In this document: positions 3,095-47,762 of the stretch, piece after piece | How the letters are laid out: each line of letters begins with the position of its first letter | How positions within the stretch are numbered: the first letter of the stretch is position 1 | Source: a virus | Virus record (IMG/VR): IMGVR_UViG_3300037042_003713 | Span: 1 to 47,762 of that record | Reading direction: 5' to 3' (one strand) | Length of the DNA: 47,762 bases | The notes under the pieces: generated by a model | What the model was told of the DNA's origin: nothing | Databases searched by the model: none | What the model saw: only the letters and a program-made list of their open reading frames with translations | Translations under genes and position numbers: made by a program

Positions 3095-4518
3095 CCATGG
3101 ACGCATACGCACTCTACTCCGGCCACGATCGCCTGTTCGCGCTGCGTGCGCTCGTCGGCCTGACCGGCGAGGGCGCACAGGCGCGCACGGGCTGGATCCA
3201 CGTCGCGCCCGAGGGTTCGTGGGAAGGTCATCCGGACGGCGCGTTCACGCTGACGCGCGCCGGATTTGAGTCTTGCATCTACGACGCCGAGCGACGCGCG
3301 ACGCCGCAGTCGGTCGACTACGAGCACGCGAGTCTGTACCCGACGGGCGAGCCGACGCCGGCCGCCGGTTACGTGCAGAAGCTCGAGCAGCGCGCGGACG
3401 GCCTGTGGGCTCTCGTCGAGTTCACCGAGCGCGCGGCGTCGATGATTCGCGCGGGCGAGTATCGGTTCTGCTCGGGCGTGTTCGCCTTCGAGCGGCGCGA
3501 CCGTCAGACCGGCGACGTGATCCCGTGCATGCTCGACAGCATCGCGCTGACGAACCGGCCGTTCATCGACGGCCAGGAGCCGATCGCGCTCTCGCAGAAT
3601 GCACGGGCGGCGACTGTCGTCGCCCTCAACGGAGGACGACAGGACATGAACATGATCAAGCGCGAGGCGCTGATGGCGGCGCTCGACTCGCTGGACGGTA
3701 CTGAGTTCGCACCCGAGCAGCTGCACGCGCTCGTCGAGGGCGTTGCCGCGCTCGAGGCCGCGAAGAATCCCGAGATGGCCGAGCACGCGGTCGAGGTCGA
3801 GGGCGAAGGCGAAGGCATGGCCGATCTCAAGTGCGGTCCCGGCTACAAGGCCAGCGAGGCCGCGCTCGCCGCGCCCGCGCCGTCGGCTCCGATGGCCGAG
3901 GCTGTGCCGCCAATGATCGGCGAGCCCGCGCCCGCCATCGACCAGGGCGCGCAGGACGCGGCCGAGATGATCATGGGCAAGCTCACTAGCGCGACCGGCA
4001 TGGACGCGGCCGCGATCATGGCCGCGCTCGACCAGAACCTCGACGCGGTGCTCGCGGCGCTCATGGGCGCGGCGGCTCCGAGCGCGGCCGACACGGCATC
4101 GAGCCTGTCGGTGCGTCTGCTCTCGCAGCAGCTGGGCGCGGTCAAGGAGCGCCTCGCCGGCTACGAGAAGGCCGAGCGCGCCGCCGCCGATCGTGCGCTC
4201 GACCTCGAGGTCGACGCGCTCGTGCAGGACGGCCGCATCCTGCCCGCGTCGCGCGAGCAGTGGCGCACGCTGGCGCGCACCGCGCGCGACCAGTTCCGCG
4301 CGCTGTCGGCGACGCTTCCGCGCGTCGTGCCGATGGGCCGCGAGGCGACCGCGACCGCGACCGCGTCGAGCAACGCGACCGCGCTCGGCGACACCATCCT
4401 CGACATGACTGACCCTCGCGTCGTCGCGCTGACCGCGGCGATGGACCGGGCCGGCGTGCAGGACTCGAAGATTCGCGCGACTCGCATCCGCGAGGCGCTC
4501 GGCAAGCGCGCCGGTTGA
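3091..4518 (+). CDS. prohead protease/scaffold, phage Mu I-like
   Basis: Matures the prohead. Residues about 1-170 match Mu I-like proteases: TGWIHVAPEGSWEGHPDGAF, VDYEHASLYPTGEPTPAAGY, a YRFCSGVFAFERR block and SIALTNRPFIDGQEPIAL. The rest is Ala/Glu-rich and helical (GEGEGMADL, then long Ala/Met and Arg/Glu stretches to the end), as expected of the scaffold part that in Mu is also made separately as gene Z from an internal start. A possible internal start is ATG 3646, which follows GGAGGACGACAGGAC and gives MNMIKREALMAALDS, so a separate scaffold may be made here too. Starts at ATG 3091 in an ATGA overlap with the minor head gene. Confidence 0.88.
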   Translation: MTMDAYALYSGHDRLFALRALVGLTGEGAQARTGWIHVAPEGSWEGHPDGAFTLTRAGFESCIYDAERRATPQSVDYEHASLYPTGEPTPAAGYVQKLEQRADGLWALVEFTERAASMIRAGEYRFCSGVFAFERRDRQTGDVIPCMLDSIALTNRPFIDGQEPIALSQNARAATVVALNGGRQDMNMIKREALMAALDSLDGTEFAPEQLHALVEGVAALEAAKNPEMAEHAVEVEGEGEGMADLKCGPGYKASEAALAAPAPSAPMAEAVPPMIGEPAPAIDQGAQDAAEMIMGKLTSATGMDAAAIMAALDQNLDAVLAALMGAAAPSAADTASSLSVRLLSQQLGAVKERLAGYEKAERAAADRALDLEVDALVQDGRILPASREQWRTLARTARDQFRALSATLPRVVPMGREATATATASSNATALGDTILDMTDPRVVALTAAMDRAGVQDSKIRATRIREALGKRAG

Positions 4519-4544
4519 TCCGGCCGAACTAGGAGGATCGAACC

Positions 4545-5027
4545 ATGGCAGCCGTTACCGCAGACCAGCTTTCCAGCATCCGCGCGACCAACGAAATCGT
4601 CGAAGAGACGGTCGCGATCACCACGTCCAACACCGTGTACCTCGGCACGCTCGCCGTGTTCCTGAACACCGGCCGCATCTCGAACGCGACCGCCGCGGCC
4701 TCGCGCCGATTCGCCGGCGAGGTCGTCGAGATCGTGAACGACTCGGGCGCGCTGATCTCGACCGGCACCGGCAACACCGCCGGAACGGTCAAGGCCAAGA
4801 TCCGCTACGGGCATCAGATGCTCCTCGGCGTGAAGACCTCGAGCCGCACGTTCACGAACCTCGGCAAGAACGCGCTCGTGTACACGAACGTCGACGTCGG
4901 CGGGACCAGCGTCGGCACGGCCGGCGTGCGGATCGTCGTCGGTCAGATCGCGCAGTTCAACGACTCCACGAAGGCTACTGCCTGGGTCTGGCTTCGCCAG
5001 TCCGGTGACGTCGCCGCGACGGCCTGA
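4545..5027 (+). CDS. head decoration-like protein
   Basis: A 160-residue beta-rich protein between the protease/scaffold and the major capsid, the usual position of a capsid decoration protein. Sequence blocks GEVVEIVNDSGALISTGTG and VYTNVDVGGTSVGTAGVRI suggest short beta strands with Gly/Thr turns. There is no cysteine and no membrane segment. It has a very strong ribosome site (AGGAGG at 4531-4536, eight bases before ATG), like the capsid gene and in contrast to the coupled genes around it, so high expression is likely. The decoration role is inferred from position, size and expected expression; no catalytic motif is seen. Confidence 0.6.
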   Translation: MAAVTADQLSSIRATNEIVEETVAITTSNTVYLGTLAVFLNTGRISNATAAASRRFAGEVVEIVNDSGALISTGTGNTAGTVKAKIRYGHQMLLGVKTSSRTFTNLGKNALVYTNVDVGGTSVGTAGVRIVVGQIAQFNDSTKATAWVWLRQSGDVAATA

Positions 5028-5063
5028 TCGCCAGTCGCTTAGAAGCAAGAAAGGCAATCAGAC

Positions 5064-6023
5064 ATGTCCGGAATCATTGCGGGTGGATTGGCTCAGTCGG
5101 CGGCGAACACCGCCTATCTGGCGAAGGGCGACGAGATCTTCCAGCGGCCGCCCGTCGGCGCGTGGGCGCTCTTCTCCGACGTCGTGCCGTGCGAGGGACA
5201 GTTCCTCGAGCTCGACACCATCGGCCCCTCGCCGATCGTGCGCGAGCTCGTCGGCAGCCGTCGCTTCGGCGCGCTCCGCGCGTACGCGAAGCGCACTCGC
5301 GTCGCCCCGTACTCGACCGACGCGCTCGAGCTCTCGCGCCTCCAGGTCGAGAAGGACGTCAACGGCTCGGTCACGCGCCGCCTGAACGACTACCTCTCGG
5401 CGAGCGCGAACTTCTGGGACAAGGCCACGACCGACGCGCTCCTCGCGAACCCGGTCGGGATCGACGGCGTCGCGCTCATCTCCTCGTCGCACCCGTACGG
5501 GTTCGGCGCGAACTGGTCGAACAACGCGGGCGCGGCTCTCTCGCCCTCGACGTTCGCGAGCGGGATCTCCGCGATGAGCGGCCTTCAGCTTGAGAACGGC
5601 GAGCCCGCCGGATTCTATCCGACGCACCTGATGGTCGGCCCCGCGCTCGAGAAGATGGCGCGCGACTTGTGCACGAACCCGCTGCGCCCGTTCCCGGTGT
5701 CGGCGTCCGGTGTCGAGGCGTACTCGACGGTCGTGGCCGCGACCGCGATCCAGAACGGCTGGTTCCAGGGTTCGATCGAGGTCGTCGTCAACAAGCGCAT
5801 GGTCGGCAGCAACGCGAACGGCTGGCTCCTGATGGACCTGTCGCGCCCCGGCGTGCGTCCGATGATCGTCGGCGAGGCGATGGCCCCGCGCGCGGTCGTC
5901 GTGGACGATCCCGGCTCGGAGCCGATGCTCCAGCGGTCCAACTACGCGTACTACGTCGAGGGCTACGCCGCGATCAGCGGCTACGCGCCGCACTGCATCT
6001 ACGGCACCATGACCGGCAGCTGA
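5064..6023 (+). CDS. major capsid protein, phage Mu T-like
   Basis: Main shell protein, 319 aa. It matches the Mu gpT-type major head subunit family: the ELVGSRRFGALRAYAKR region, YSTDALELSRLQVEKDVNG, the HPYGFGANWSNNAG block (about 151-164), PTHLMVGPALEKMARDL, and near the end VEGYAAISGYAPHCIYG. It follows the decoration-like gene after a 36-base gap. The start ATG 5064 is preceded by AAGAAAGGCAATCAGAC, a weaker ribosome site than that of gene 4545. A 65-base gap with an inverted repeat follows. The family assignment is from recognised blocks; the T=number and structure cannot be seen here. Confidence 0.9.
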   Translation: MSGIIAGGLAQSAANTAYLAKGDEIFQRPPVGAWALFSDVVPCEGQFLELDTIGPSPIVRELVGSRRFGALRAYAKRTRVAPYSTDALELSRLQVEKDVNGSVTRRLNDYLSASANFWDKATTDALLANPVGIDGVALISSSHPYGFGANWSNNAGAALSPSTFASGISAMSGLQLENGEPAGFYPTHLMVGPALEKMARDLCTNPLRPFPVSASGVEAYSTVVAATAIQNGWFQGSIEVVVNKRMVGSNANGWLLMDLSRPGVRPMIVGEAMAPRAVVVDDPGSEPMLQRSNYAYYVEGYAAISGYAPHCIYGTMTGS

Positions 6024-8024: not shown

Positions 8025-10858
8025 CCCGCATCTTCTCGACGGCCATCGCGCAGATCAGCGCGGGGACGACCGCGGCGGCCGCGACGAACGTCGTGCTGTC
8101 GAACGCGAACGGCGTGTCGTTCGGCGCGAACGGCGCGACGATCACGGCAAGCGTCGCGGCCGCAACGCAGTCGACCGCGCCTGGCGCGTTCGCCGCGGGC
8201 ACGGTCACGATCACGAGCGGCACGGTCGTGCTGTCGAACGGCGGCGGCGTCTCGTTCGGCGCGAATGGGCAGACCGTCACGGGCAGCGTAGGAGCGGGCG
8301 CAACGGCCACTGGCAATCTCGGAGGGCTCGCGGTAGGGGCCTCGACGCTGACGAGCGGCACGGCCGTCCTGAGCGCCTCTAACGGGCTCTCTTTCGGCTT
8401 CAACGGCGCGACGATCACCGGCAGCTACTCGCAGTCGACCGCGCCGAGCGGCATCGCGGGCGCGGGCGTAACGGCGACGTCCGGCACCGTCCTGTTCTCG
8501 AGCGCGAACGGCGTCAGCTTCGGCCTGAACGGGCAGACGATGACGGCGTCGGTCGGCGCGGGCGCGACCGCGACCGGCAACGTCGGCGCGCTCGCCGGCG
8601 GCACGCAGACCGCGACATCTGGAACGATCGCGTTCAGCGACTCCAATGGCGTGTCCTTCGGCCTTTCGGGCTCGACCAGGATGACGGCATCGGTCGCGGC
8701 AGGCGCGACCGCCACGGGCAATCTGGGCGCGATCGTCGTCGGCACGGTCACGCAGTCGAGCGGGACCGTTGTGTTCTCGAACTCAAACGGCGTCACGTTT
8801 GGGATGAACGGCGGCACGATCACCGCGTCGGCATCGGGCGGCGGCGCGGCTGACGGCGGGATCTTCGCGAGCGCGGCGGGCTCGAGCGTCACGGCTGGGA
8901 CGGTCGTGTGGTCGAACTCTAATAACGTCAGCTTCGGCATGAACGGCTCGACGATCACGGCGAGCGCGAGCGCGTCGCAGTCGACCGCGCCGAGCGGCAT
9001 CGCGGCGGCGGGCGGCACCGCGACCAGCGGGACCGTGCTCTGGTCGAACGCGAACAACGTCTCGTTCGGGTTCAACGCGAACACGATCACGGCGTCGGCG
9101 TCGTACTCGCAGAGCACGGCACCTAGCGCGCTCGTGGCGGGCACGCAGACCGCGGCATCAGGCTCGGTGTCGTTCGCCGATTCCAACGGCGTCACGTTCG
9201 GCATGAGCGGCTCCTCGCGCATCACCGCGAGCGTCGCGGCCGGTGCGACGGCGACGGGCAATCTCGGCGCGTTCGCGGCGGGCACGGTCACGCAAACGAG
9301 CGGCACCGTGCTCGCGAGCAACGCGAACGGCGTGAGCTTCGGACTCAACGCGGGCACGCTGACGGGTTCGGTCGCGGCCGGTGCAACGGCGACCGGCAAC
9401 CTCGGCGGAATCGCCGCGAACGGCGCGACCGCGACGAGCGGCACCGTGATCTTCAGCGCGAGCAACGGCCTCGCGTTCGGCCTGAACGCCGGGACGATCA
9501 CCGCGAGCTACACGCAGTCGACCGCACCCGCCGCGATCAGCGCGGGCACCGCGAGCGTGGGCGCGGGAACGGTCGTGTTCAGCAACTCGGCGAACGTGAG
9601 CTTCGGCCTCAACGGCTCGACCGTGACCGCGAGCGCGAGCTACTCGCAGTCGACCGCGCCCGGTGCGATTGCGGCCGGGACGCAGACGGCCACGAGCGGA
9701 ACGATCGCGTTCAGCGATTCGAACGGCGTGTCGTTCGGACTGAGCGGCTCGACCAGGTTGACCGCAAGCGTCGCGGCAGGAGCGACCGCGACCGGGAACT
9801 TCGGCGCGATTGCGGCCGGGACGCAGACGCAGACCTCGGGCACGGTCATCTGGTCGAACAGCAACGGCGTCTCGTTCGGACTGAACGCGGGCACGTTGAC
9901 CGCGTCGGTCAACGCGGGCGGCGGCGGCGGCGTTGCGGTCAGCGCGGGCACCGCGAGTCAGAGCACCGGCACGGTGATCTTCAGCAACTCTAACGGGATC
10001 ACGTTCGGCCTGAACGCGGGCACGTTGACCGCGAGCGCGGCGGCGGGTCCGGCCGCGGGCATCGCGGCGGTGAGCGGCGGCACGACGCTCGCGACCTCGG
10101 GCACGCTCGTGTTCAGCAACGCGAACGGCGTGTCGTTCGGGATCGACGGCAACACGATCACCGCCTCGACGGCGATGGACACGTCGCCCTTCTACGACAA
10201 CCTCGACTTCGGCGCGACGAACAGCGCGGGCATCGGCGTGTTCGCGTTTACGAACTCGCATCGGTCGCTGTTCCTCGGGCCGCTCGACGGGAATCACATC
10301 GAGTTCCCCGACAACATCACCGCGTCGACGATGCACCTGAACTTGTCGCTGTCCGGCTCGACCGCGACCGCGTCGGCCGCGTTCACGTCGCGCTTCTATC
10401 TCGGGATCTACACCGAGAACGGCACGCAGTTGTCGCTGCTCAACAGCGTGCAGGCGAGCTTCGGGTTCGCCGCGGCGGCGACGAACAACTCGACCGGATT
10501 TGCGGGCGTGCGATTCCTGCCGATCGCGTCGTCGGCGTGGTCCTCGTCGCCCGTGTTCAGGGCGGGCGATCGCTACCATCTCGGATGGTTCTGGTCGTCG
10601 TCCGGCGGCACGGTGAATCAGACCGGCCAGTTGCTCGGATTCGGCCGGTACTCGTCCGGTCAGCGCAGCGGGTCAATCGGCGTCAGTCAGGTCACGGCCA
10701 CATCGGTCGGATACGCGCCGTTCTATGGCGTGTACACCGCGACCACCTCCGCGCTTCCGGTGAGCATCGCGAACTCGCAGCTGAACAAGCAGGCCGGCAC
10801 GGCCGCGTTCGTGCCGCACGTTCAGATCATCGCGGCGACGAACTACTCGGTGTTCTGA
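8021..10858 (+). CDS. long repetitive fibre-like protein with about 16 beta repeats
   Basis: 945 aa. Residues about 20-716 consist of about 16 modules of 42-47 residues. Each has a core like SNGVSFGLNGSTITAS, preceded by SGTVVFSN, and linkers of two types (QSTAPGAIAAGTQTAT or AGATATGNLGAIAAGT). Such alternating short strands suggest a beta-solenoid or stacked-strand shaft. The last 230 residues (from DTSPFYDNLDFGATNS on) are non-repetitive, contain many aromatic residues (RYHLGWFWSSS) and probably form a receptor-binding or trimerisation head. GTG start overlaps the preceding stop. It is encoded early in the structural block, before the tail genes, so it could be a head or neck fibre as well as a tail fibre. 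Confidence 0.75.
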   Translation: MTRIFSTAIAQISAGTTAAAATNVVLSNANGVSFGANGATITASVAAATQSTAPGAFAAGTVTITSGTVVLSNGGGVSFGANGQTVTGSVGAGATATGNLGGLAVGASTLTSGTAVLSASNGLSFGFNGATITGSYSQSTAPSGIAGAGVTATSGTVLFSSANGVSFGLNGQTMTASVGAGATATGNVGALAGGTQTATSGTIAFSDSNGVSFGLSGSTRMTASVAAGATATGNLGAIVVGTVTQSSGTVVFSNSNGVTFGMNGGTITASASGGGAADGGIFASAAGSSVTAGTVVWSNSNNVSFGMNGSTITASASASQSTAPSGIAAAGGTATSGTVLWSNANNVSFGFNANTITASASYSQSTAPSALVAGTQTAASGSVSFADSNGVTFGMSGSSRITASVAAGATATGNLGAFAAGTVTQTSGTVLASNANGVSFGLNAGTLTGSVAAGATATGNLGGIAANGATATSGTVIFSASNGLAFGLNAGTITASYTQSTAPAAISAGTASVGAGTVVFSNSANVSFGLNGSTVTASASYSQSTAPGAIAAGTQTATSGTIAFSDSNGVSFGLSGSTRLTASVAAGATATGNFGAIAAGTQTQTSGTVIWSNSNGVSFGLNAGTLTASVNAGGGGGVAVSAGTASQSTGTVIFSNSNGITFGLNAGTLTASAAAGPAAGIAAVSGGTTLATSGTLVFSNANGVSFGIDGNTITASTAMDTSPFYDNLDFGATNSAGIGVFAFTNSHRSLFLGPLDGNHIEFPDNITASTMHLNLSLSGSTATASAAFTSRFYLGIYTENGTQLSLLNSVQASFGFAAAATNNSTGFAGVRFLPIASSAWSSSPVFRAGDRYHLGWFWSSSGGTVNQTGQLLGFGRYSSGQRSGSIGVSQVTATSVGYAPFYGVYTATTSALPVSIANSQLNKQAGTAAFVPHVQIIAATNYSVF
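8081..10170 (+). repeat. about 16 tandem protein-coding repeats (42-47 codons each)
   Basis: DNA repeats underlying the fibre protein. Recurrent blocks include GCGACCGCGACCGGCAA-type linkers and GGCGTGTCGTTCGG-type cores. The long open minus-strand frames here (8425-9501 and 9158-10579) are by-products of this repetitive GC-rich composition. Confidence 0.8.
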
Positions 10859-10878
10859 TCCGCGGTGCGCGCAAGCGC

Positions 10879-11619
10879 ATGCAACCTGTCGAGGAGGTCG
10901 TCGAGGCGCTGCGCTCGCCTGGCCTTGGATACGAGCGCGTCGAGCTCCACCACGGCTCGACGTACAAGGATGTCAGCACGATCGTGATCGTGCCGACGCG
11001 CGGCATGATCCATCACCGCGTGGTCACGGCCTGGCAGAACCTGATCGCGCCGATGAACCAGAAGCGCGCGTTCTTGTTCGTGAGCGGCGACGAGGTCGGC
11101 AAGGCGTACGACCGCATGATCCAGCACGCGCTCGACCACGAGCAGCTGCGCCAGTTCAAGTACGTCTTTACCCTCGAGGACGACAACCTGTGCCCGCCCG
11201 ACGCGCACGTTCGTCTGCTCGAGAGCATCGAGCTCGGACCGTACGACGCGGTCAGCGGCCTGTACTGGACGAAGGGCGACGTCAACATGCCGATGGCATA
11301 CGGCGACCCGGACGAGTACGCGCGCACCGGCGTGCTCGACTTCCGCCCGCGCGACGTCCGCAAGGCGCTCGAGCGCGGCACCGTGATGCCGGTCAACGGG
11401 ATCGCGATGGGATGCTCGCTCTACCGCATGGACCTGTTCCGCCAGATCAAGGCCCCGTGGTTCGTGACGTGCGCGGACGTGATTCCGGACAAGGGTCCGA
11501 TCGGGTTCACGCAGGATCTCTACTTCTGCGAACAAGCCTGTCGCGCGGGCAAGCGGTTCGCGGTCGACATGCGCGTCCGCGTCGGCCACCTCGACGTCAA
11601 CACCGGAGTCGTTTACTGA
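10879..11619 (+). CDS. glycosyltransferase, GT-A type
   Basis: 246 aa. Nucleotide-binding style start STIVIVPTRGMIHHRVVTAW (about 35-54), FLFVSGDEVGKAYDRMIQHA, then the FTLEDDNLCPPDAHVRLL block in which EDDN is the likely DxD-type metal/nucleotide-sugar site (about residue 100), and AVSGLYWTKGD. This layout is typical of GT-A fold transferases. No membrane segment. Start ATG 10879 is chosen because the upstream part of the frame lies within the repeat protein. It is coupled by TGATG to a methyltransferase. Two sugar-type enzymes inside the structural operon suggest modification of a virion protein such as the Thr/Ser-rich fibre next door; this is inference. Confidence 0.75.
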   Translation: MQPVEEVVEALRSPGLGYERVELHHGSTYKDVSTIVIVPTRGMIHHRVVTAWQNLIAPMNQKRAFLFVSGDEVGKAYDRMIQHALDHEQLRQFKYVFTLEDDNLCPPDAHVRLLESIELGPYDAVSGLYWTKGDVNMPMAYGDPDEYARTGVLDFRPRDVRKALERGTVMPVNGIAMGCSLYRMDLFRQIKAPWFVTCADVIPDKGPIGFTQDLYFCEQACRAGKRFAVDMRVRVGHLDVNTGVVY

Positions 11620-31381: not shown

Positions 31382-31906
31382 CTACCTCCTGATCATCGTG
31401 GCCGACAGGCCAATGACTGCCGCGTCCCGCTCGTGCACGCTCGCGAGCGCCAGCTGCGGCCAGCGCGCGAGCACGACCGCATGCGCGTCCTCCTCGGGCA
31501 CGCGACCCGTGCGCGCGCCCGTGACGAGCCGCCGCGAGTCGAGCACCGTGATCTCGACCATCGGCAGACCGCGGCCGACCGCTCGGATGAGGCCGTGCGC
31601 GTACCCAAGCGCGCGCGCCTGACTCGCGCCTCGCGACCCGCTCGGCAGTTCGTACGCGAGCACGTCGGGCGCGTGCCGGCGGACGACGCCGACGAGCTCG
31701 TCGACGAGTACGTCGATGCGGCGCGCATCGTCGGACGACTGGTGCAGCATCAGTCGCTTTGTCTCGCGCTTGGTCGAGATAAGACGGTTCTCGAACAACT
31801 CAAGGTCGGCGTCGATCACGACGACGCCGCACGCCGCGAACCCGAGGTCGACGGCCATGACTCGTTGACGCATTCGCTTACCATTTATAGCTCTGCACGA
31901 ACTCAT
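31382..31906 (-). CDS. RuvC-like Holliday junction resolvase
   Basis: 174 aa from ATG 31906 (ATGA overlap; ATG 31873 is a shorter option). RNase H-like fold: MAVDLGFAACGVVVID (Asp20) is strand 1; LAYELPSGSRGASQARALGY (Glu86) the second acidic motif; EEDAHAVVLARW and ERDAAVIGLSATM (Asp161) the C-terminal acidic helix. These are the catalytic carboxylates of RuvC-type resolvases. It probably resolves branched replication or recombination intermediates before packaging and fits with RecT and the SSB-like protein further upstream in the operon. Confidence 0.82.
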   Translation of the reverse strand: MSSCRAINGKRMRQRVMAVDLGFAACGVVVIDADLELFENRLISTKRETKRLMLHQSSDDARRIDVLVDELVGVVRRHAPDVLAYELPSGSRGASQARALGYAHGLIRAVGRGLPMVEITVLDSRRLVTGARTGRVPEEDAHAVVLARWPQLALASVHERDAAVIGLSATMIRR

Positions 31907-32862: not shown

Positions 32863-33213
32863 TCAGAACGGAATGTCGTCCGAGTAGCTCGACGACGTGC
32901 TCGACCCGCTCGCGGTCGTGGTGCCGGTCATCGCGGGCGCGCTCCTGGCCGTGCTCGCGCTGCTCTGTCCGCCGAACGTGCGCGAGTCGTAGACGTCGAC
33001 GAAATGCGACCAGCGGCCGCCGTCGTCGCGGCTAACGCGCGTGATCGTGCCGTCCTCCCACTGCACCGCCAGCTGCTTGATCTTGCGGTCGAGCGCGAGG
33101 CTCGACAGCTTGCCGTCGCGCTCCCACCCGGCGAACAGATAGAGCCTGTCCTCCTTGCTGCCGCCGACAGGCTTGAGGCTGATAGACATCGTCGGTCGCT
33201 TGTTCTCACTCAT
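32863..33213 (-). CDS. SSB-like protein with DDIPF C-terminal tip
   Basis: 116 aa. It ends in SSSYSDDIPF, the acidic-hydrophobic tip by which bacterial single-stranded DNA-binding proteins recruit partners, after a Ser/Thr/Gly-rich flexible linker (about 80-110). The core of about 75 residues (SISLKPVGGSKEDRLYLFAG, VQWEDGTITRVSRDDGG, HFVDVYDS) is beta-rich and smaller than a classic SSB OB fold (about 110 residues). It may be a compact non-classical ssDNA-binding protein. It lies in a tight RecT - helix-rich protein - SSB-like order. Confidence 0.55.
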   Translation of the reverse strand: MSENKRPTMSISLKPVGGSKEDRLYLFAGWERDGKLSSLALDRKIKQLAVQWEDGTITRVSRDDGGRWSHFVDVYDSRTFGGQSSASTARSAPAMTGTTTASGSSTSSSYSDDIPF

Positions 33214-33746
33214 CGCTTCTTCCCTTCGTTTCGAAGATCGTCCGGTGTTCTCTTGGTGCGCTTACTGGCGGCATCGGATGCGCGCGCGATGGTCCTCTCG
33301 GCCTTCGACCGACGCAGTCCGCACTCGCCTGCCACACGCATGGCCATGTCGACAAACTTGACCGACCACTGATCGTGGAACAGCGCGACCGTAAAGACGA
33401 TCCGGTTCAGTTCGTCTTGAATCTGCTCTTCGCTCATCGACCTGTGATGCGCGATCAGCGCGTTGAACTCACGCGTTGCCAAGTCCGTGACCGCTTTGAC
33501 GCCGCGCTCGTGCTGTTGCTTTTCGCTCTCTCGCTCTTCGTTGACCGTGAGCGGAAGAGTCTGCTGCGTGGCGGACTGACGCATCACGGCCACCGTCGCG
33601 AACATCGACGACAACGCGTGAGACGCGACGGCAGACATGCTCATCTTCGACCACGCGGCGAACTCGCGCAGCTGCGCGTGCAAGTCGTGTTCGATGTTGA
33701 TCGACGTCTGAACCAATGCGTTCGGCTCTCTCTTGTTCTCCATCAA
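33210..33746 (-). CDS. ribbon-helix-helix-like protein
   Basis: 178 aa from ATG 33746 (ATGA overlap with RecT stop). LVQTSINIEHDLHAQLREFA and AWSKMSMSAVASHALSSMFA give the strand-helix-helix look of a DNA-binding RHH domain in the first 55 residues. The remainder is helical (KAVTDLATREFNALIAHHRS, FTVALFHDQWSVKFVDMAMR), with a basic end (ERTIARASDAASKRTKRTPD). Might be a regulator of the operon or an accessory of the recombination genes next to it. Confidence 0.55.
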   Translation of the reverse strand: MMENKREPNALVQTSINIEHDLHAQLREFAAWSKMSMSAVASHALSSMFATVAVMRQSATQQTLPLTVNEERESEKQQHERGVKAVTDLATREFNALIAHHRSMSEEQIQDELNRIVFTVALFHDQWSVKFVDMAMRVAGECGLRRSKAERTIARASDAASKRTKRTPDDLRNEGKKR

Positions 33747-34462
33747 CTTCCTTCCGCCGCGATCACCGCGGCACTCGACACTCGCTGCGCGGCCTCGCGC
33801 CCGAGATCCACGAGCCGCGCGAACGCGGCATCACCCACGGTCCGACGCTGACGCGCCGCGACCAACTCGGCCTTCGCCGATGCAATCTCCGCGAGGCTCG
33901 TCGCGCCGCGCAGGAGGCTCGCCACGCGCTGCTCGTCGTCGTCGTCGGGCACGACCTGGGCGTCGATGGACTCGGCCTCCTCGGGCACGTACAGACCGCC
34001 GCCGCCGATGACGTCCGGCGCGAACGCGCGCACGGCCGCGCTGATACAACGCGCCCGGAGCATGGCCTTTGGGTACGTCTGCCAGGGTCCGCTCTTGCCC
34101 GCGAGGCCCGCCTTGCGCGCGCCTTCGATCGTCCACGTCTCCTCGTGCTGCACGTCGTCGCGGGTCAGGCGCAGCGTCGCGACCGAGTCGGTCGACTCGA
34201 GCCACTCGACGCGCACGCCGGCTCGAATGGCGCGAGCGAGCATCGCGCCCGACGACAGCGTCGGCCGGCCGTTCACCACGTGAATCTCGCGGAGGCTTTC
34301 CATCGGGCCCATGCCGAGCTCCGCGCCGGTCAGAATGCACGCGGCGATCGCGTGCGGCTGGCCGAGGTACGTTGACGGCACGAAGCCACGCGACTGGGCG
34401 AGGCTATCGGCGAGGCGGAAGACGTCGGGCATCGACGTCGGGATCAGTGCGAGTTTCGACAT
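33743..34462 (-). CDS. recT: RecT-family single-strand annealing recombinase
   Basis: 239 aa from ATG 34462, with AAGGAAGCTGC in front. PDVFRLADSLAQSRGFVPST, AIAACILTGAELGMGPMESL (about 38-57), REIHVVNGRPTLSSGAMLAR and the KSGPWQTYPKAMLRARCISA block followed by AVRAFAPDVIGGGGLYVPEE are the conserved RecT features. The acidic linker and helical tail follow. It pairs complementary strands. The usual partner exonuclease was not found in this window; SSB-like protein and resolvase are in the same operon. Confidence 0.88.
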   Translation of the reverse strand: MSKLALIPTSMPDVFRLADSLAQSRGFVPSTYLGQPHAIAACILTGAELGMGPMESLREIHVVNGRPTLSSGAMLARAIRAGVRVEWLESTDSVATLRLTRDDVQHEETWTIEGARKAGLAGKSGPWQTYPKAMLRARCISAAVRAFAPDVIGGGGLYVPEEAESIDAQVVPDDDDEQRVASLLRGATSLAEIASAKAELVAARQRRTVGDAAFARLVDLGREAAQRVSSAAVIAAEGS

Positions 34463-34473
34463 GCAGCTTCCTT

Positions 34474-34977
34474 TCAGGTGATCTTGAGGTAACGGGTTCC
34501 GGGTCGAATCCTCGCGCCCGCCGGCACGAGGCCGGTGCGCTTGTACTCGGCCATGATCGAGGTCTTCGAGGCGACGCGCTCGAGCCGAACGTGATCGTCG
34601 GGGACCTGGGCGACGTCCTCGATCTCGACCGCCTCGACGCCCTCGATCACCACGATCGTGTGCGTCGCGGTCGTCAACTTGCGCATCTTCGCGATGTCCA
34701 TGCACGCGATCGAGTGCTCGCGGATGCGGTCGGTCTTGGCCTGGAGCGCGCGTCGCCGTTCAGCGAGGCGCTTCTCCTCGACGCGAATCTCGTCCGCGTC
34801 GGCGCGCATTGACTCAAGCATCGCGACTAGGCCGCGCATGCGCTCGCCGAGCTCCATGTTCGTCGCGGCGAGCTCGTGGAACGCGGCATCGGCGGCCGCG
34901 TCGTCGTCGCCCTCCATCGCCTCGAGGAGCGCGCCGTGTTGGGCGGACAGTTGGTAGAGCGGTACGCGCGTCATCAT
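34474..34977 (-). CDS. siphovirus Gp157-family protein
   Basis: 167 aa. LYQLSAQHGALLEAMEGDDD then ELAATNMELGERMRGLVAML and a long basic coiled coil (ADEIRVEEKRLAERRRALQA), and the C-terminal VRLERVASKTSIMAEYKRTG with PAGARIRPGTRYLKIT are the Gp157 pattern. Such genes usually sit directly next to RecT- or ERF-type annealing genes in phage early operons, as here. Exact role not known; some family members are linked with phage resistance. Confidence 0.85.
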   Translation of the reverse strand: MMTRVPLYQLSAQHGALLEAMEGDDDAAADAAFHELAATNMELGERMRGLVAMLESMRADADEIRVEEKRLAERRRALQAKTDRIREHSIACMDIAKMRKLTTATHTIVVIEGVEAVEIEDVAQVPDDHVRLERVASKTSIMAEYKRTGLVPAGARIRPGTRYLKIT

Positions 34978-35968: not shown

Positions 35969-36268
35969 TTAGTAGCCGTCGCCGGAGCCGGAGCCGTCGC
36001 CGTTGCCGTTGCCGTCGCCGTCGCCGTCGCCGTCGCCGGAGCCGTAGCCGTCGCCGGAGCCGTTGCCGGAACCGTAGCCGGAGCCGTTGCCGGAGCCGTC
36101 GCCGGAGCCGTAGCCGTAGCTGGAGCCGGAGCCGTAGCCGTAGCCGTAGCCGGAGCCGGAGCCGTCGCCGGAGCCGTAGCCGTAGCCGGAGCCGTTGCCG
36201 GAGCCGTCGCCGGATCCGTAGCCGTCGCCGGAGCCGTTGCCGGAACCGGAGCCGTTCACTTGCCCCAT
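35969..36268 (-). CDS. extreme low-complexity (S/D/N/Y)-Gly dipeptide repeat protein
   Basis: 99 aa from ATG 36268; GTG 36259, overlapping the upstream stop as GTGA, gives 96 aa and fits the operon style. After MGQV the protein is 47 dipeptides, 46 of them X-G with X = Ser (18), Asp (11), Tyr (10) or Asn (7), one S-S, and a final Tyr. Glycine makes up about half. Only five residue types are used. The sequence is expected to be disordered; the Tyr/Gly/Ser make-up resembles phase-separating FUS-type domains and the DG runs could bind calcium. Encoded by about 47 near-identical hexamers. Ends in TAA. No homologue known to me. Confidence 0.6.
   Translation of the reverse strand: MGQVNGSGSGNGSGDGYGSGDGSGNGSGYGYGSGDGSGSGYGYGYGSGSSYGYGSGDGSGNGSGYGSGNGSGDGYGSGDGDGDGDGNGNGDGSGSGDGY
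35972..36255. repeat. hexanucleotide tandem repeat (GCCGNN-type)
   Basis: About 47 copies of a 6-base unit, GCCGGA, GCCGTA, GCCGTC or GCCGTT on the + strand, in place of ordinary gene sequence. Only the first two bases of the X codon vary (TCC, TAC, GAC, AAC). Because all three minus frames are open, the region could mutate by slippage. Confidence 0.85.
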
Positions 36269-38896: not shown

Positions 38897-39312
38897 CGCG
38901 CTCGGGTGCCATCGCGCGCGAGTTGCTCGGCGCGATCGAGGGCATATACATCGTCGACTCGCCGAAGCGAGAGCCGATGATCCAGTCGCTCTTCCCCGGC
39001 GTCGAGGTGCTTAGCCCGCGCAACTACGGATGGAGCGGGGCTGGCCAGCTGATCACGGTCGGCGAGTGGACGCGGATCATCCGCGACCGGACGGTGATCG
39101 TTTGGACGACGGCCGATCCCAAGATAGGCACGATCCATCAGATGCGCCGGGTCGGCCGCATCGCGCTCGAGCGAGGAGCCGCGCACGCGTTCGGGCAGAT
39201 CCACATCGCGACGCCTCGCCGCATCTACCTCGACCGCGAGCCGCACGACCCGCATCGACGCGCGAGCGCGGACCAGCTGGACCTCGACCTCGACCGACGA
39301 GGCCCACGATGA
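38893..39312 (+). CDS. hypothetical protein upstream of prim-pol
   Basis: 139 aa from GTG 38893 (GTGA overlap). ARELLGAIEGIYIVDSPKRE, then MIQSLFPGVEVLSPRNYGWS, GQLITVGEWTRIIRDRTVIV and AAHAFGQIHIATPRRIYLDR. Alpha/beta protein with several short strands; it ends in an acidic tail. Not recognised. Its coupling to the prim-pol gene suggests a replication accessory role. Confidence 0.5.
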   Translation: MTRSGAIARELLGAIEGIYIVDSPKREPMIQSLFPGVEVLSPRNYGWSGAGQLITVGEWTRIIRDRTVIVWTTADPKIGTIHQMRRVGRIALERGAAHAFGQIHIATPRRIYLDREPHDPHRRASADQLDLDLDRRGPR

Positions 39313-40178
39313 TGCTCGACGCCGCGCTCCGAATCGCCGCCGAGGGGCATCGGATCTTCCCATGCGACGAGAGCAAGCGGCCGCTCATCCCGTGGCGCAC
39401 GCCGCACGCGTCGCCGTTGTGGACGCACGACTATCTCAAGCAGATCACGGACTGGTGGCGCGAGTGGCCGGCCGCGCTCATCGGCCATCCGACGGGCATG
39501 CGGTCGTCGTCGAGCGGGCCGTGGTGTGAGGTCGTGATCGACGTCGACGTGAAGCGCGGCGCATACGGCCTCGAGACGCTCGCCGAGCTCGAACAGGATC
39601 ACGGCCCGCTGCCCGAGACGTGCACCTCAAGGACGCGCTCGGGCGGGCAGCATCGATGGTTCTGGACGCGCGCCGAGATTCGGAACAGCGCGGGCAAGGT
39701 CGGCCGACGCGAGGCCGTCGGGCTCGACGTGCGCGGCGAGGGCGGGTTCGTGATCGTGCCGCCGTCCGCCGGATACGAATGGATCGGCGATTCGTGGATG
39801 GTGCCGGACGGTGACGTGCAGCTGGCCGAGTTGCCGAACGCGTGGGCGGTCGCGCTCAGTCGCCGCGCCGAGCGCCAGGAGAACGACGCCGCGCGCGCGG
39901 CATGGGCCGCGGAGAGCGAGCGGTCGAGGGAGCGCACGGGCGACGTCGTGATGCGCCTGGCGCAGGAGATTGCGAGCGCGCCGAGAGGCACGCGGAACGA
40001 GACGCTGTCTCGCCACGCGTTCACGCTCGGCTGCATCGTCGCAGAGCGCCGGCTCGACGAGGCGCGCGCGGTGGCACTGATCGAGAGCGCCACGGCCTCG
40101 TGGCCGGCGGACGAACGAGACGAGCGCAAGGACCGGGACACCGCAGCGCGACAGCTGCGAGCAGGAATGGGGGCGTGA
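39309..40178 (+). CDS. primase/polymerase (bifunctional Prim-Pol domain)
   Basis: 289 aa from ATG 39309 (ATGA overlap). ALRIAAEGHRIFPCDESKRP then IPWRTPHASPLW and WPAALIGHPTG lead to VVIDVDVKRGAYGLETLAEL (about 74-93), where the DxD pair binds metal; TRSGGQHRWFWTRAEI (about 110-125) and VGLDVRGEGGFVIVPPSAGY complete the prim-pol core. The last 90 residues are helical. Makes primers and possibly extends DNA. Directly followed by the helicase gene. Confidence 0.85.
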   Translation: MMLDAALRIAAEGHRIFPCDESKRPLIPWRTPHASPLWTHDYLKQITDWWREWPAALIGHPTGMRSSSSGPWCEVVIDVDVKRGAYGLETLAELEQDHGPLPETCTSRTRSGGQHRWFWTRAEIRNSAGKVGRREAVGLDVRGEGGFVIVPPSAGYEWIGDSWMVPDGDVQLAELPNAWAVALSRRAERQENDAARAAWAAESERSRERTGDVVMRLAQEIASAPRGTRNETLSRHAFTLGCIVAERRLDEARAVALIESATASWPADERDERKDRDTAARQLRAGMGA

Positions 40179-41161
40179 TGGGCGAAGTCAACGAAGAGGC
40201 GATCAAGGCTAAGAAGCTCGAACTGGATCTGGCGATCGCGGCCGGTCTGTTCGACCGCGTGCCGGCCATCGCGGCCATGCTCGCGCTGCTCGCGAAGCCC
40301 AAGAAGGCCGGGTTCTTCGACGGGTGCCGATTCACCGCGCTGGAGTTGCTACAGGGCGATCGGCCGTTGCCGCGCCAATGGACGGCGCGGCTCATCGGTC
40401 CGAGCGGTCAGCCGGGAGTCGGATTACTGCCGCGCGGCGAGGTCGGGTTGTTCGCCGGATCGGCCGGCGGCGGCAAGTCGATGATCGCAATCGGCCTTGC
40501 GATCGGCATCGCCAGCGGCACGCCCGCGCTCGACGTCGTCGACTGCCTTCGAGGACGCGTGCTCTACGTCTCGACCGAGGACGACGCCGACGAGCTCTAC
40601 CGGCGGATCTACAGCTACCTCGAGCGCGCCGCCCAGGCGAACGGCGGCCTCGACTCGGCCGACGCATGCGGCCGCATCGACTGTCTCGTGCGGCCGAAGG
40701 GCACGGACTGGTCGCTGGTCGATTCGGCGGGCCGTCCGACGGCCGCCTTCGAGGCGCTGAACGAGATCGTCCAGGTCGGCGAGTACGCCCTCGTCGTGCT
40801 CGACACGCTCAGTCGACTCGGGAACGACGAGATCGAGAAGTCGCCCACGGCCTCGCGCAAGTTCGTCGAACTGCTCGAGCAGATGACGGCCTCGCCGAGC
40901 AAGCCCACGGTGCTGATGCTGCACCACATGCGAAAGGCCGAGAACGGCAACAAGCGCAAGGGCGAGGACGTCGAGGAGGATCTGACGGCCGACAGCATCC
41001 GCGGCACGAGCGGTCTGGTCGGCGGCGTTCGGTTCGCGATCATCGCGCAGCCGCAGGACGGGGCCGTCCGCGTCGTGCTGGCGAAATCGAACTACGGGCC
41101 GAGGACGACGATCAACCTACGCAAGGGCGACCACGGCGTGATCTGGGGGCGAGCGACATGA
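40178..41161 (+). CDS. RepA-like/AAA25 replicative helicase ATPase
   Basis: 327 aa from ATG 40178 (TGATG coupling). Walker A GSAGGGKSMIAIGLA with Lys100; VLYVSTEDDADELYRRIYSY; Walker B YALVVLDTLSRLGND (about 202-216); LMLHHMRKAEN (sensor, about 246-256); GTSGLVGGVRFAIIAQ near 278-293. This is the RecA-like core of RepA-type hexameric helicases, short as in plasmid RepA. Together with the upstream prim-pol it forms the replication motor. Confidence 0.85.
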   Translation: MGEVNEEAIKAKKLELDLAIAAGLFDRVPAIAAMLALLAKPKKAGFFDGCRFTALELLQGDRPLPRQWTARLIGPSGQPGVGLLPRGEVGLFAGSAGGGKSMIAIGLAIGIASGTPALDVVDCLRGRVLYVSTEDDADELYRRIYSYLERAAQANGGLDSADACGRIDCLVRPKGTDWSLVDSAGRPTAAFEALNEIVQVGEYALVVLDTLSRLGNDEIEKSPTASRKFVELLEQMTASPSKPTVLMLHHMRKAENGNKRKGEDVEEDLTADSIRGTSGLVGGVRFAIIAQPQDGAVRVVLAKSNYGPRTTINLRKGDHGVIWGRAT

Positions 41162-43935: not shown

Positions 43936-45024
43936 TCAGGTGCGCATCGGCATGATCACGCCGACAACCTGACGCGTCTCGTCGAGGTCGTACACCGCGA
44001 CCGGCTCAAGCGGCTGCCCGAGCGCGATATCGATGCGCTCGCCCGAGCACGCGCGCAGGAGGTCGGACAGGTACGTCGCGTTGATCCGCGACTCGCCCGC
44101 CCTCGCATCGGACGCGGGCACGTCCTCGCTCGACTCGCCCGAGTCCGGCGACTGAGCCGAGAGCCGCAGCGCGTCATCCGCGATCGAGATCAGCACGCTG
44201 CTCTCGCGGTCGGACACGAGCGACACGCGGTGCAGCGCGGCCATCAGGTCCGAGCGCAGGACGCTCGCGCGACCGCCCGTGCGGTTCGTGCTCGGCATGA
44301 TCTTGCGCCACGGCGGGAACGCGTCCTCGCCGAGCACGCATCGCAGCGACGTCTCGCCGCGTTCGACGACGAGGTGCCGGCCCTCGCGCAAGAGCACGAC
44401 GCCCTCGGCCTCCTCGCGTTCGAGGCACAGCCCGATCACGGACGACGCGACCGCGCTCGGCAGGAGCGTCGGGACGCCGAGCGCCTCGCACGGGATCGAC
44501 GCCATCGACAGGCGATGACCGTCGGTCGCGACGGCGGTCGCGGTGCCGCCGGCGAGCTCGAGTTGAATCCCGGCCAAGTGCGGGCGCGAGACGTCGTCGC
44601 CGGTCGCGTGCTGAACCGAGCGCAGGAGCTCGCCGAGCGCGAGCGCGGGCATGGTCGCAAGGAGGTCGCCGGTCGTCGTGTGCAGCGCGGGGAAGTCCTC
44701 GATCGACATCGTCGGCAGCTTGAAGCGCGCGCGGCCGGCGCGGACGGTCGCGACGCCCTTGGTCAGTTCGATCACGACGTCGCCCACGGGCAGGTTCGCG
44801 GCGACGCTGGCGAACGTGCGCGCGGGCACGGCGAACTCGCCGTCGCCGACGCACCGCACGTTGGTTCGGATCGACCGCTGCGCATCGGACGCGGCGAGGG
44901 TCGCGGTGCCGCCGAGCGCGCGGACGGCGATGCATCCAAGGATGGGCATCGGCGTCTTGCTCGGGACGATCGGCAGCACGCGGCGGATGGCTCGGTTCAG
45001 GTCGGACGAGTGGATCGTGATCAT
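43936..45024 (-). CDS. dnaN: DNA polymerase III sliding clamp (beta subunit)
   Basis: 362 aa from ATG 45024, close to the family length of about 366. MITIHSSDLNRAIRRVLPIV, PMPILGCIAVRALGGTATLA, FAVPARTFASVAANLPVGDV, RFKLPTMSIEDFPAL and the third-domain end (YLSDLLRACSGERIDIALGQ, QVVGVIMPMRT) follow the clamp pattern with three domains. It is the only gene on this strand between TerL and the sugar genes, and stops directly at the TerL stop (convergent). A phage-own clamp without its own C-family polymerase suggests it redirects or supplements the host polymerase. Confidence 0.9.
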   Translation of the reverse strand: MITIHSSDLNRAIRRVLPIVPSKTPMPILGCIAVRALGGTATLAASDAQRSIRTNVRCVGDGEFAVPARTFASVAANLPVGDVVIELTKGVATVRAGRARFKLPTMSIEDFPALHTTTGDLLATMPALALGELLRSVQHATGDDVSRPHLAGIQLELAGGTATAVATDGHRLSMASIPCEALGVPTLLPSAVASSVIGLCLEREEAEGVVLLREGRHLVVERGETSLRCVLGEDAFPPWRKIMPSTNRTGGRASVLRSDLMAALHRVSLVSDRESSVLISIADDALRLSAQSPDSGESSEDVPASDARAGESRINATYLSDLLRACSGERIDIALGQPLEPVAVYDLDETRQVVGVIMPMRT

Positions 45025-45066
45025 GTCCGCATGTCTCCGCGGACGGCCCGCGGTGCGCGCCTCGAC

Positions 45067-45759
45067 ATGAAGGTCGGGATCGTCCTCGCGCGCGGCGGAA
45101 GCAAGCGCGTTCCGCGTAAGAACATGCGCCAGGTCGGCGGGCGCACGCTCGTCGAGCGCGCCATCGCATCGGGTGCCGGCCTCGATCGCGTGTACGTCTC
45201 GACCGACGACGACGAGATCGCGCAGGAGGCCGAGTGGCACGGCGCGACCGTGCATCGTCGGCATGCAATCTGGGCGCGCGATACGACGACCAGCGAGGAC
45301 GCGATCGCGGACTGGTGGAGCAAGCTCGACCTCGCCGCGCTGCCCGACGTCGTCGTGCTCCTGCAACCGACGTCGCCGTTGCGCGAGCGCGTGCACGTCG
45401 ACGAGGCCGTGCAGCTGCTCGAGGCGACGGGCGCGGACTCGGTCGTGTCGGTCGTCGTTGACCCGCTGCATCACTTCGCCGGCCGTCTGCGACCGCGCGA
45501 GGGCGGCGCGGACTGGATGCCGTTCCGTCCGTGGGATCATCGCCCGCGCACGCAAGACCTGCGTCACCTGGGCACGGAGAACGGCGCGATCTTCGCGTGG
45601 ACGCGCGAGCATTGGACGCACACCAGGAGGCGCGACGGCGGGCACTGTCGGGCGTACGTCATGCGCGCGATCGACTCGGTCGACATCGACCACGAGGACG
45701 ACTTCGCATTCGCCGAGGCGTGTCTCGCGGCCCGGTCCGCGGTGAGCGGGCGAGCATGA
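45067..45759 (+). CDS. neuA: NeuA-like CMP-nonulosonic acid cytidylyltransferase
   Basis: 230 aa from ATG 45067. KVGIVLARGGSKRVPRKNMR (1-21) is the nucleotide-binding signature of acylneuraminate cytidylyltransferases; VYVSTDDDEIAQEAEWHGAT, then PDVVVLLQPTSPLRERVHVD and ADSVVSVVVDPLHHFAGRLR complete the core. It activates a sialic-acid-like sugar with CTP. Coupled (ATGA) to the NeuB-like gene. Divergent from dnaN with a 42-base gap. Confidence 0.87.
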   Translation: MKVGIVLARGGSKRVPRKNMRQVGGRTLVERAIASGAGLDRVYVSTDDDEIAQEAEWHGATVHRRHAIWARDTTTSEDAIADWWSKLDLAALPDVVVLLQPTSPLRERVHVDEAVQLLEATGADSVVSVVVDPLHHFAGRLRPREGGADWMPFRPWDHRPRTQDLRHLGTENGAIFAWTREHWTHTRRRDGGHCRAYVMRAIDSVDIDHEDDFAFAEACLAARSAVSGRA

Positions 45760-46643
45760 TCACGCACCTGGGCCAGCGGTCCATCACGCCGGACGCGCCG
45801 CCGTACTTCGTCGCGGAGCTTGGCCCGAACTTCGTCGTCTCGACGTCGCGCGCGGCGAACCTCGAGAGGCTCCACCGCATGGTCCGCGAGGCCGCGCGTG
45901 CGGGCGCGGACGCGGTCAAGATTCAGCTGAAGTCACTCGGCGGGTTCTACGCGGGCGACGACATGACGCGACCGCCGCACGACCCGTCGCGGTCGCCGTT
46001 CGCGACGCGCGGCGAGTACGTCGCGGCGCGCGAGCCGGACGCCGAGATCATGGCGCTCCTCGACGAGTGGTGCGCGGGATACGGCATCCACTGGACGGCG
46101 AGCGCGTGGGATGCCGAGAGCGTCGAGAAGCTGCGCGGCCGCGTGCCGTGGGTCAAGGTCGCGTCCGCGTGCGTGTCCGACCTCGCGCTGCTCGAGCGCG
46201 TGCGGTCGCTCGACGTCCCGGTCGTGCTATCGACCGGCATGTCGACGATCGAGGAGGTCGACCGCGCCGTGATGGCGATCGGCCAGGATCGACTTGTGCT
46301 CGCGCAGTGCACGGCCGCCTACCCGTGCGCGGTCGAGAACCTGAACCTCGACGTGATGCGGACGCTCCGCGATCGCTATCACGTCCCGGTTGGATGGTCG
46401 TCGCACTCGACGGTCGCCGACGCGGCCGGATGGGCGACGGCGATGGGCGCGCGCTGGATCGAGTATCACCTGACGCTCGACCGCGGCGCGTGGGGTCCGG
46501 ACCACTCGTCGAGTCTTGAGACGATCGAGTTCGCGCGCGCGGTGCATGCCTCGCGGCAGGCGCACGCCGCGGTCGGCGACGCGAGCAAGCGCGTCCTCGA
46601 CATCGAGGAGCCCGCGCGCGCTCGGCTCCGGAGGGTCGGATGA
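45756..46643 (+). CDS. neuB: NeuB-like nonulosonic acid synthase, without SAF domain
   Basis: 295 aa from ATG 45756. PPYFVAELGPNFVVSTSRAA, GADAVKIQLKSLGGFY, WTASAWDAESVEKLRG, WVKVASACVSDLALLERVRS, VVLSTGMSTIEEVDRAV, LAQCTAAYPCAVENLNLDVM and VGWSSHSTVADAAGWATAMG, WIEYHLTLDRGAWGPDHSSS follow the NeuB TIM barrel. It joins phosphoenolpyruvate to a hexosamine. The C-terminal SAF (antifreeze-like) domain of typical NeuB (about 345 aa) is missing, and EYH replaces the usual EKH, so the substrate or activity may differ. Confidence 0.87.
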   Translation: MITHLGQRSITPDAPPYFVAELGPNFVVSTSRAANLERLHRMVREAARAGADAVKIQLKSLGGFYAGDDMTRPPHDPSRSPFATRGEYVAAREPDAEIMALLDEWCAGYGIHWTASAWDAESVEKLRGRVPWVKVASACVSDLALLERVRSLDVPVVLSTGMSTIEEVDRAVMAIGQDRLVLAQCTAAYPCAVENLNLDVMRTLRDRYHVPVGWSSHSTVADAAGWATAMGARWIEYHLTLDRGAWGPDHSSSLETIEFARAVHASRQAHAAVGDASKRVLDIEEPARARLRRVG

Positions 46644-47762
46644 ACTGCCATCTCTGCGAACTCCCGCTCGACCAGGCGGTCGAGGTCGGAACGACGGCTC
46701 GGCACGGCGAGGTCGTTCGCAACGTCGCGTGCGGACGATGCGGTCTGGTGCAGGTCACGCCGCTTCCGAGCGAGGGCGAGCTCGCCGACTACTACGCGAC
46801 CGAGTACCGCCGCCTGTATCGGCCGATGCCGGTCGGCGGGCACGAGCCTGGGACGTCCGAGTACGAGGCCGCGCTCGACGCGGTCGCGGAGGCGTACGCC
46901 GACCTCCTCGTCGAGCAGCTGGGCCTCGGCCCGGCGTCGCGTGTCCTCGAGGTCGGATGCGGCGACGGCCGGCTCGCGCTCGCGCTGAGCAAGCGCGTCG
47001 GCGAGGTGCTCGCGTGCGAGCTCGACGTCGATGAGCGGCTCAAGGCGTGGGGCCGCGACGTCGACGTGCGCTGGCCGTCGCTCGCGCAGGCGGTCGAGTC
47101 CGGCGAGGTGTTCGACGCCGTGATCTCGTCGCACGTCCTCGAGCACTTGCGCGCGCCTATCGCCGCGCTCGAGACGATGGCGTCGATGCTGACGGTCGAC
47201 GGCGTGATCTGGGCCGAGGTGCCGAACGTACGCCGGCCCTACGGTGACCTCGCGACGCACTACTGGCAGCGCGCGCACCTGTACTCGTTCTCGCCCGAGA
47301 CGGCCGCGCTGACGGCCCTGCGCGCGGGCCTGACGGGGATCGCGTCACGCGCCGAGCAGGCCCACGGCCGCGTGCTGTTCCTGACGGCGCGGAACCCGCA
47401 GGCGCGCACGCCGCGCACGTACGCCGAGTCGGTGCAGCTGCTCGGCGGCGAGCCGCAGACCGGCGTCAAGGTCGCGACCGCGCTCGAGGCGTACCAGCGC
47501 GCGCGTCAAGCGAACGCGGGCCGACGCCTCGGCGAGTTCATGGCGTCGACTGGCGAGGCGGACAGGTGGCTCCGCGAGGAGGTGCAGCGCATGGCCGACG
47601 CGCTCGGCTCGACGATGCACGCGCTTGGCAAGCTCGCGCAGGATCTCGACGAGTACGGGTCGCGCGACTCGACGACCGACGACGAATGGGGCCGCGCGTA
47701 CGAGTGCGGCGAGCGCGCGATGGCCCAGCGCGTCAACGTCGTCGTCTCGCACCTCGCGAACC
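46640..47762 (+). CDS. zinc-ribbon SAM-dependent methyltransferase (3' end beyond window)
   Basis: At least 374 codons, open to the window end. N-terminal MNCHLCELPLDQAV and VACGRCGLVQVTPLPS are the paired CxxC zinc ribbon; ASRVLEVGCGDGRLALALS (about 102-120) is motif I; SSHVLEHLRAPIAALETMA and VIWAEVPNVRRPYGDL follow. Such enzymes occur in polysaccharide and sugar clusters. Coupled to NeuB by ATGA, so it may methylate the nonulosonic acid or a linked sugar. The last about 120 residues are helical and charged. Confidence 0.8.
   Translation, partial: MNCHLCELPLDQAVEVGTTARHGEVVRNVACGRCGLVQVTPLPSEGELADYYATEYRRLYRPMPVGGHEPGTSEYEAALDAVAEAYADLLVEQLGLGPASRVLEVGCGDGRLALALSKRVGEVLACELDVDERLKAWGRDVDVRWPSLAQAVESGEVFDAVISSHVLEHLRAPIAALETMASMLTVDGVIWAEVPNVRRPYGDLATHYWQRAHLYSFSPETAALTALRAGLTGIASRAEQAHGRVLFLTARNPQARTPRTYAESVQLLGGEPQTGVKVATALEAYQRARQANAGRRLGEFMASTGEADRWLREEVQRMADALGSTMHALGKLAQDLDEYGSRDSTTDDEWGRAYECGERAMAQRVNVVVSHLAN

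Follow-up and report, generated by a model that had tools for sequence, protein, structure and literature searches.

What is the small protein that is encoded in the recombination operon of this tailed phage and that ends in the C-terminal tip of a bacterial SSB? The window (the whole stretch of DNA analyzed, 47,762 nucleotides) is that of a tailed phage with its own replication and recombination genes. On its minus strand, an ORF at positions 32863-33213 runs from ATG to TGA and encodes 116 amino acids, ending in SYSDDIPF. This ORF is a real gene, since it was kept as a gene by a home-made codon model (score of 29.4), an SD-like GAAGGGAAG lies upstream of its ATG, its start codon overlaps the stop of the preceding ORF in a 4-nt ATGA, and homologues are present in two phage contigs (L002 and L003), between which dN is 0.083 and dS is 0.94 (dN/dS of 0.088). 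The protein comprises three parts:

32986..33213, minus strand: core domain of the SSB-like protein, residues 1-76, conserved in L002 and L003 (alignment of three)
32881..32985, minus strand: linker rich in Ser/Thr/Gly/Ala, residues 77-111, weakly aligned with that of L002
32866..32880, minus strand: DDIPF tip at the C terminus (DDLPF in each relative), for which a chance control is given below

The core is nearly neutral or slightly basic, with a pI of 8.1 and 13 Lys and Arg residues to 12 Asp and Glu residues. In the 34 residues that follow (77-110), S, T, G, A, P, N, and Q make up 85%, there is not a single acidic residue, and the protein then closes with SDDIPF. This composition suggests that the linker between core and tip is disordered. 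Two marks of the bacterial SSB family (PF00436) were found, namely, the acidic D-D-x-P-F tip at the C terminus (DDIPF here and DDLPF in both homologues) and a low-complexity linker, the length of which varies between homologues. An earlier note on this DNA had given the same coordinates exactly, with the strand unstated, and had described a DDIPF end behind a flexible Ser/Thr/Gly-type linker and a folded part of about 75 residues; translation and composition confirm the former, and the core of about 76 residues agrees with the latter.

The homologues came from RecT neighborhoods, five RecT loci in viral contigs (L002 to L006) having been inspected. L002 and L003 each encode a protein of 99 aa directly downstream of RecT, which is 40 to 43% identical to the window protein and ends in DDDLPF. 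No such ORF was found at the other three loci (L005, L006, and L004, the last of which is truncated by the end of its contig). Alignment of the window protein with that of L002 indicates conservation of the core and the tip but drift of the linker: 33 of 71 aligned residues are identical in the core (6 gap columns) and 4 of 6 at the C terminus, compared with 4 of 21 in linker residues 77-110 (13 gap columns). The core is under purifying selection in L002/L003; the ratio for the window and L002 (dN of 0.63, dS of 1.38, dN/dS of 0.46) says little, as dS is near saturation. Among the matches listed, the late genes (22.4 to 27 kb) and several early genes are shared between the window and L002/L003, and both have a coiled-coil ORF past the resolvase slot (27 of 65 residues identical). 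Because the three phages are related, the three cases of the family are not independent.

The family as found has three members. Neither tblastn of the window protein against phages nor a protein query of viral contigs and genome contigs with it returned a homologue, and since the scan of viral contigs missed L002 and L003, these scans are not exhaustive. Scans of contigs with the L002 protein or with the three-sequence profile returned L002 and L003 again or nothing, and no member was found in a plasmid search. Three degenerate DNA patterns run over all viral contigs gave, apart from L002 and L003, eight unrelated stretches (three plus five), which were rejected after translation. When the L002 protein was compared with phages by tblastn, six records were returned with E values of 1 to 9; five of these were inspected (the remaining one being another record of the same phage), and in none did the match fall in a small gene beside RecT. 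No paper on the family was found within the open-licence literature. As judged from these sequence searches, the family is undescribed, with the tip attached to an unrecognized core and the gene placed in a RecT operon.

The genes that surround the SSB-like gene in the window are as follows:

34474..34977, minus strand: Gp157 / Gam-like protein, upstream of RecT (PF05565, E = 3e-19; phrog_253, "Mu Gam-like end protection," E = 2e-22)
33743..34462, minus strand: RecT single-strand annealing protein (PF03837, E = 3e-9; phrog_561, E = 8e-40)
33210..33746, minus strand: ORF of 178 aa, or 177 aa when read from the ATG at 33743, which separates RecT from the SSB-like gene and overlaps each of them at start/stop codons
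31382..31906, minus strand: RuvC-like Holliday junction resolvase, downstream in the same operon (phrog_159, E = 5e-19; PF02075 below the cut-off)

With these successive start/stop overlaps, recT, the 178-aa ORF, and the SSB-like gene appear to be coupled in translation. The N terminus of the 178-aa ORF is perhaps a ribbon-helix-helix, for which all matches are subthreshold (E of 0.05 to 0.12 in Pfam and 0.02 to 0.2 in PHROGs), and in L002/L003 the ORF is not present at this place. The SSB-like gene had been described as lying next to RecT, which is accurate for L002 and L003, where it follows RecT directly, but in the window this one ORF intervenes. All three members are encoded after RecT, in the company of recombination nucleases (RecE-like, RuvC-like, and PDDEXK), which is the arrangement of an annealing-protein/SSB module. 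Such SSAP-SSB gene modules are described as common in phages, with Gp157- or Gam-like genes upstream in erf and sak4 modules, in the sections of PMC8093625 that deal with them. A RecE-like exonuclease (phrog_434) precedes RecT in both L002 and L003; none was found next to RecT in the window. The slot downstream of the SSB-like gene is occupied by the RuvC-like resolvase in the window (31382-31906, minus strand) and by a PDDEXK endonuclease (PF24608) at L002:7055-7402, a swap of unrelated nucleases.

In a survey of 22 other RecT loci, SSB-tip-like endings turned up only in the SSB of Synechococcus phage S-LBS1 and in a replication initiator (L026), and none of the loci matched the three-sequence family profile. 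An annotated SSB directly follows RecT in 1 of 15 annotated RecT loci, where many genes are unnamed, and lies within the inspected stretch in 3 of the 15 (L014, L015, and L016); the unannotated locus L017 was left out of this count. With 1 locus in 15, an SSB slot after RecT is not universal.

The usual SSB pattern, which the earlier note had found missing, was indeed not recovered. The SSB-like protein had no match above the cut-off in Pfam, PHROG, NCBIfam, or PDB. Its sole NCBIfam match, to the PRK06341 SSB (E = 0.061; 13.3 bits against a cut-off of 254 bits), covers residues 51-116, a region of which more than half is linker and tip. The same libraries readily find canonical phage SSBs (phrog_44, E values of 9e-26 and 9e-48). 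PF00436 matched neither the protein nor anything in four records (the window, L002, L003, and L004), its control being positive in 12 of 14 genomes; PF10991 and PF05037 (DUF669) likewise matched neither the protein nor anything in three records (the window, L002, and L003), their controls being nearly empty (positive in 1 and 2 of the 14 genomes, respectively). Since all four records may be fragments, the absence of these SSB families is provisional. Profile comparisons with the SSBs of HK620 and S-LBS1 and with Enc34 ORF6 gave probabilities of 0.1 to 0.3%, obtained with a weak profile of three sequences only. A Pfam match to CENP-O (E = 0.13, below the cut-off) and the subthreshold PHROG matches of the relatives (phrog_11606 and phrog_26647, both unknown families; E of 0.06 to 0.11) were set aside as noise.

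AlphaFold modeling of the window protein alone (pLDDT of 51.1) yielded six short strands and one 3-residue helix, and modeling of the L002 protein with three sequences (pLDDT of 48.6) yielded three longer strands and no helix. The core is predicted, at low confidence, to be all-beta, and neither of these low-confidence models has the helix of the classic OB fold. Foldseek searches with them against PDB and BFVD gave no significant match, as expected for such models, and VIA-align with the low-confidence model likewise gave none (best Z of 2.9, mostly beta-propeller rows). The proposal that this is a new small ssDNA-binding family was divided in its outcome: a conserved family without a library match, placed in a RecT module and retaining its tip, is borne out, whereas an OB fold and ssDNA binding remain putative, with models below a pLDDT of 52 and empty fold searches.

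What the phage otherwise encodes bears on the role of the protein. Its replication genes include the following:

39300..40178 (approximate start), plus strand: Prim-Pol primase/polymerase (PF09250, E = 5e-25)
40421..40942, plus strand: AAA_25 ATPase domain (PF13481, E = 4e-28; PHROG hits among phage primase/helicase and DnaB families)
43936..45030 (approximate start), minus strand: DnaN-like sliding clamp (phrog_947, "DNA polymerase processivity factor," E = 4e-68; PF00712, PF02767, and PF02768)

The AAA_25 ATPase is the probable replicative helicase; the DnaN-like clamp was not found in the L002, L003, and L004 records. Given these three replication proteins together with RecT and the RuvC-like resolvase, and no SSB of the families searched, an SSB is the obvious missing part.

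We therefore consider that the SSB-like protein is probably the phage's own small SSB, either highly diverged or nonhomologous, and that its tip recruits RecT and host SSB partners. This reading is favored by the phage's own replication genes, the recombination operon, the usual pairing of SSAP and SSB, the presence of an SSB after RecT in S-LBS1, and the known role of the tip. The core of about 76 residues, which leans basic and has conserved aromatic and basic residues, would bind the ssDNA that arises from end resection and at the phage replisome. The flexible linker would present the acidic-hydrophobic tip (D-D-I/L-P-F), and the tip, by analogy with bacterial SSB and the HK620 SSB, would recruit the RecT of the same operon and the host proteins that read SSB tips. 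Against this reading, homology to any SSB was not detected, the core is nearly neutral, and tips of this kind are not confined to SSBs; in addition, the host SSB could serve the phage.

Known SSB systems offer both likenesses and differences. The gene right after RecT in S-LBS1 encodes a canonical SSB ending in DDEEVPF, and the window protein resembles such bacterial-type SSBs (PF00436; phrog_44) in its position after RecT, its probably disordered linker, and its acidic end in P-F. Its core of about 76 aa differs from that of bacterial-type SSBs, which is about 110 aa, and it matches neither PF00436 nor phrog_44, the profile comparison with the S-LBS1 SSB reaching 0.3%. The HK620 SSB (HkaK), the cognate SSB of Sak4, also is encoded by a phage gene beside an annealing protein, and the pertinent sections of PMC5928155 report that loading and stimulation of Sak4 need the last six residues of this neighboring SSB; however, HkaK has 195 aa and the tip NDYPPF, and no sequence similarity to the window protein was detectable. 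For RecT itself, recognition of about seven C-terminal SSB residues, to which its activity and host range are tied, is described in part of PMC10711431. There is also precedent for phage SSBs that escape profile detection, as the relevant portions of the reports on Enc34 ORF6 (PMC5686142) and the Bam35 SSB (PMC8276246) indicate. SSBs of the Enc34 ORF6 / DUF2815 and T7 gp2.5 type (PF10991) have a disordered acidic C terminus (PMC5686142, in part) and resemble the window protein in this acidic end, but they are about 200 aa long, show no similarity to it, and carry an extended acidic tail (in Enc34, 16 of the final 29 residues are acidic) instead of a short tip after a neutral linker. The Bam35/phi29 group, whose families are hardly linked to OB folds by profiles according to a portion of PMC8276246, is set apart by its description, as these SSBs belong to protein-primed viruses, are longer, and have an N-terminal helical part.

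It is possible, although we are rather doubtful, that the family is a novel one of very small SSBs from outside the SSB/OB lineage, which gained the bacterial tip by convergence, so that it coats ssDNA yet stays readable to RecT and the host SSB-reading machinery. Should the protein bind ssDNA, it would represent an SSB of very small size that bears the tip and would demonstrate that the tip can be placed on a core not recognizable as SSB. When RecT is used to engineer genomes, its host range depends on the tip of the SSB (PMC10711431, in part), so that a compact pair of RecT and SSB taken from a single operon could serve as a portable unit for recombineering. A search by tip and gene slot, not by fold, might likewise uncover SSBs that are hidden in phages seemingly without one.

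An unlikely alternative to an SSB of the phage's own is that the protein serves as an adaptor of the RecT module, with a core that binds RecT (or the exonuclease or resolvase) in place of ssDNA and a tip that docks the complex onto host SSB-tip readers. Linkage to RecT in all three family members fits this model, as do the nearly neutral core and the lack of an SSB profile match. Moreover, an SSB-like tip does occur on a phage protein that is not an SSB: the initiator at L026:9893-11104 (plus strand), a member of the phrog_3926 replication initiation family, ends in DDDIPF after a linker. As this replication initiator is unrelated, the tip alone is weak evidence for an SSB. The adaptor model is countered by the finding that SSBs are ordinary companions of phage annealing proteins (PMC8093625, in the sections on these modules) and by the absence from this phage of an SSB assignable to PF00436, PF10991, or PF05037, the three families looked for.

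The earlier note had also raised the notion of a decoy that displaces host SSB partners, in which the free tip would titrate SSB-tip-reading host proteins away from the host SSB. ExoI, RecO, RecQ, and PriA are among such readers. The small size of the protein, its accessible tip, and the lack of a proven DNA-binding domain would suit this role, but no positive evidence for it was obtained, and we regard it as improbable: the core is conserved (33/71 with L002) and under purifying selection in L002/L003, and the gene is embedded in a conserved recombination operon, which points to a functional component. A monovalent peptide of micromolar affinity also is a poor decoy unless very abundant, which counts against this explanation.

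That the tip arose by chance on some unrelated small early protein, for which the shortness of the motif and the orphan status in all library searches might speak, is very improbable and is largely refuted by conservation of the tip in homologues of 40% identity despite change in the length and sequence of the linker. The tip also is rare: the window has 463 stop-to-stop ORFs that reach 60 aa or more, of which the SSB-like ORF alone ends in [DE][DE][IVLMA]PF, and none of 34,631 ORFs in 60 simulated windows (first-order Markov) does.

Several other observations were made along the way. With its SSB tip, the L026 initiator (9893-11104) may draw to the origin those host proteins that read SSB tips. 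In the window, a Mu-type portal (PF06074) and a Mu-like head protease (PF10123) at 612-6023 (plus strand) are combined with the RecT/Prim-Pol early region. The minus-strand ORF at 35969-36268 would, if coding, specify 99 aa that consist almost entirely of G-S-G-D/N/Y repeats, and the other strand also is open there, with a repetitive V-A-G pattern. Finally, genes for a cytidylyltransferase (CTP_transf_3) and a NeuB-like sialic acid synthase at 44230-46643 (plus strand) are followed by a methyltransferase at 46640-47762, and these genes possibly form a phage-borne sugar modification cassette.
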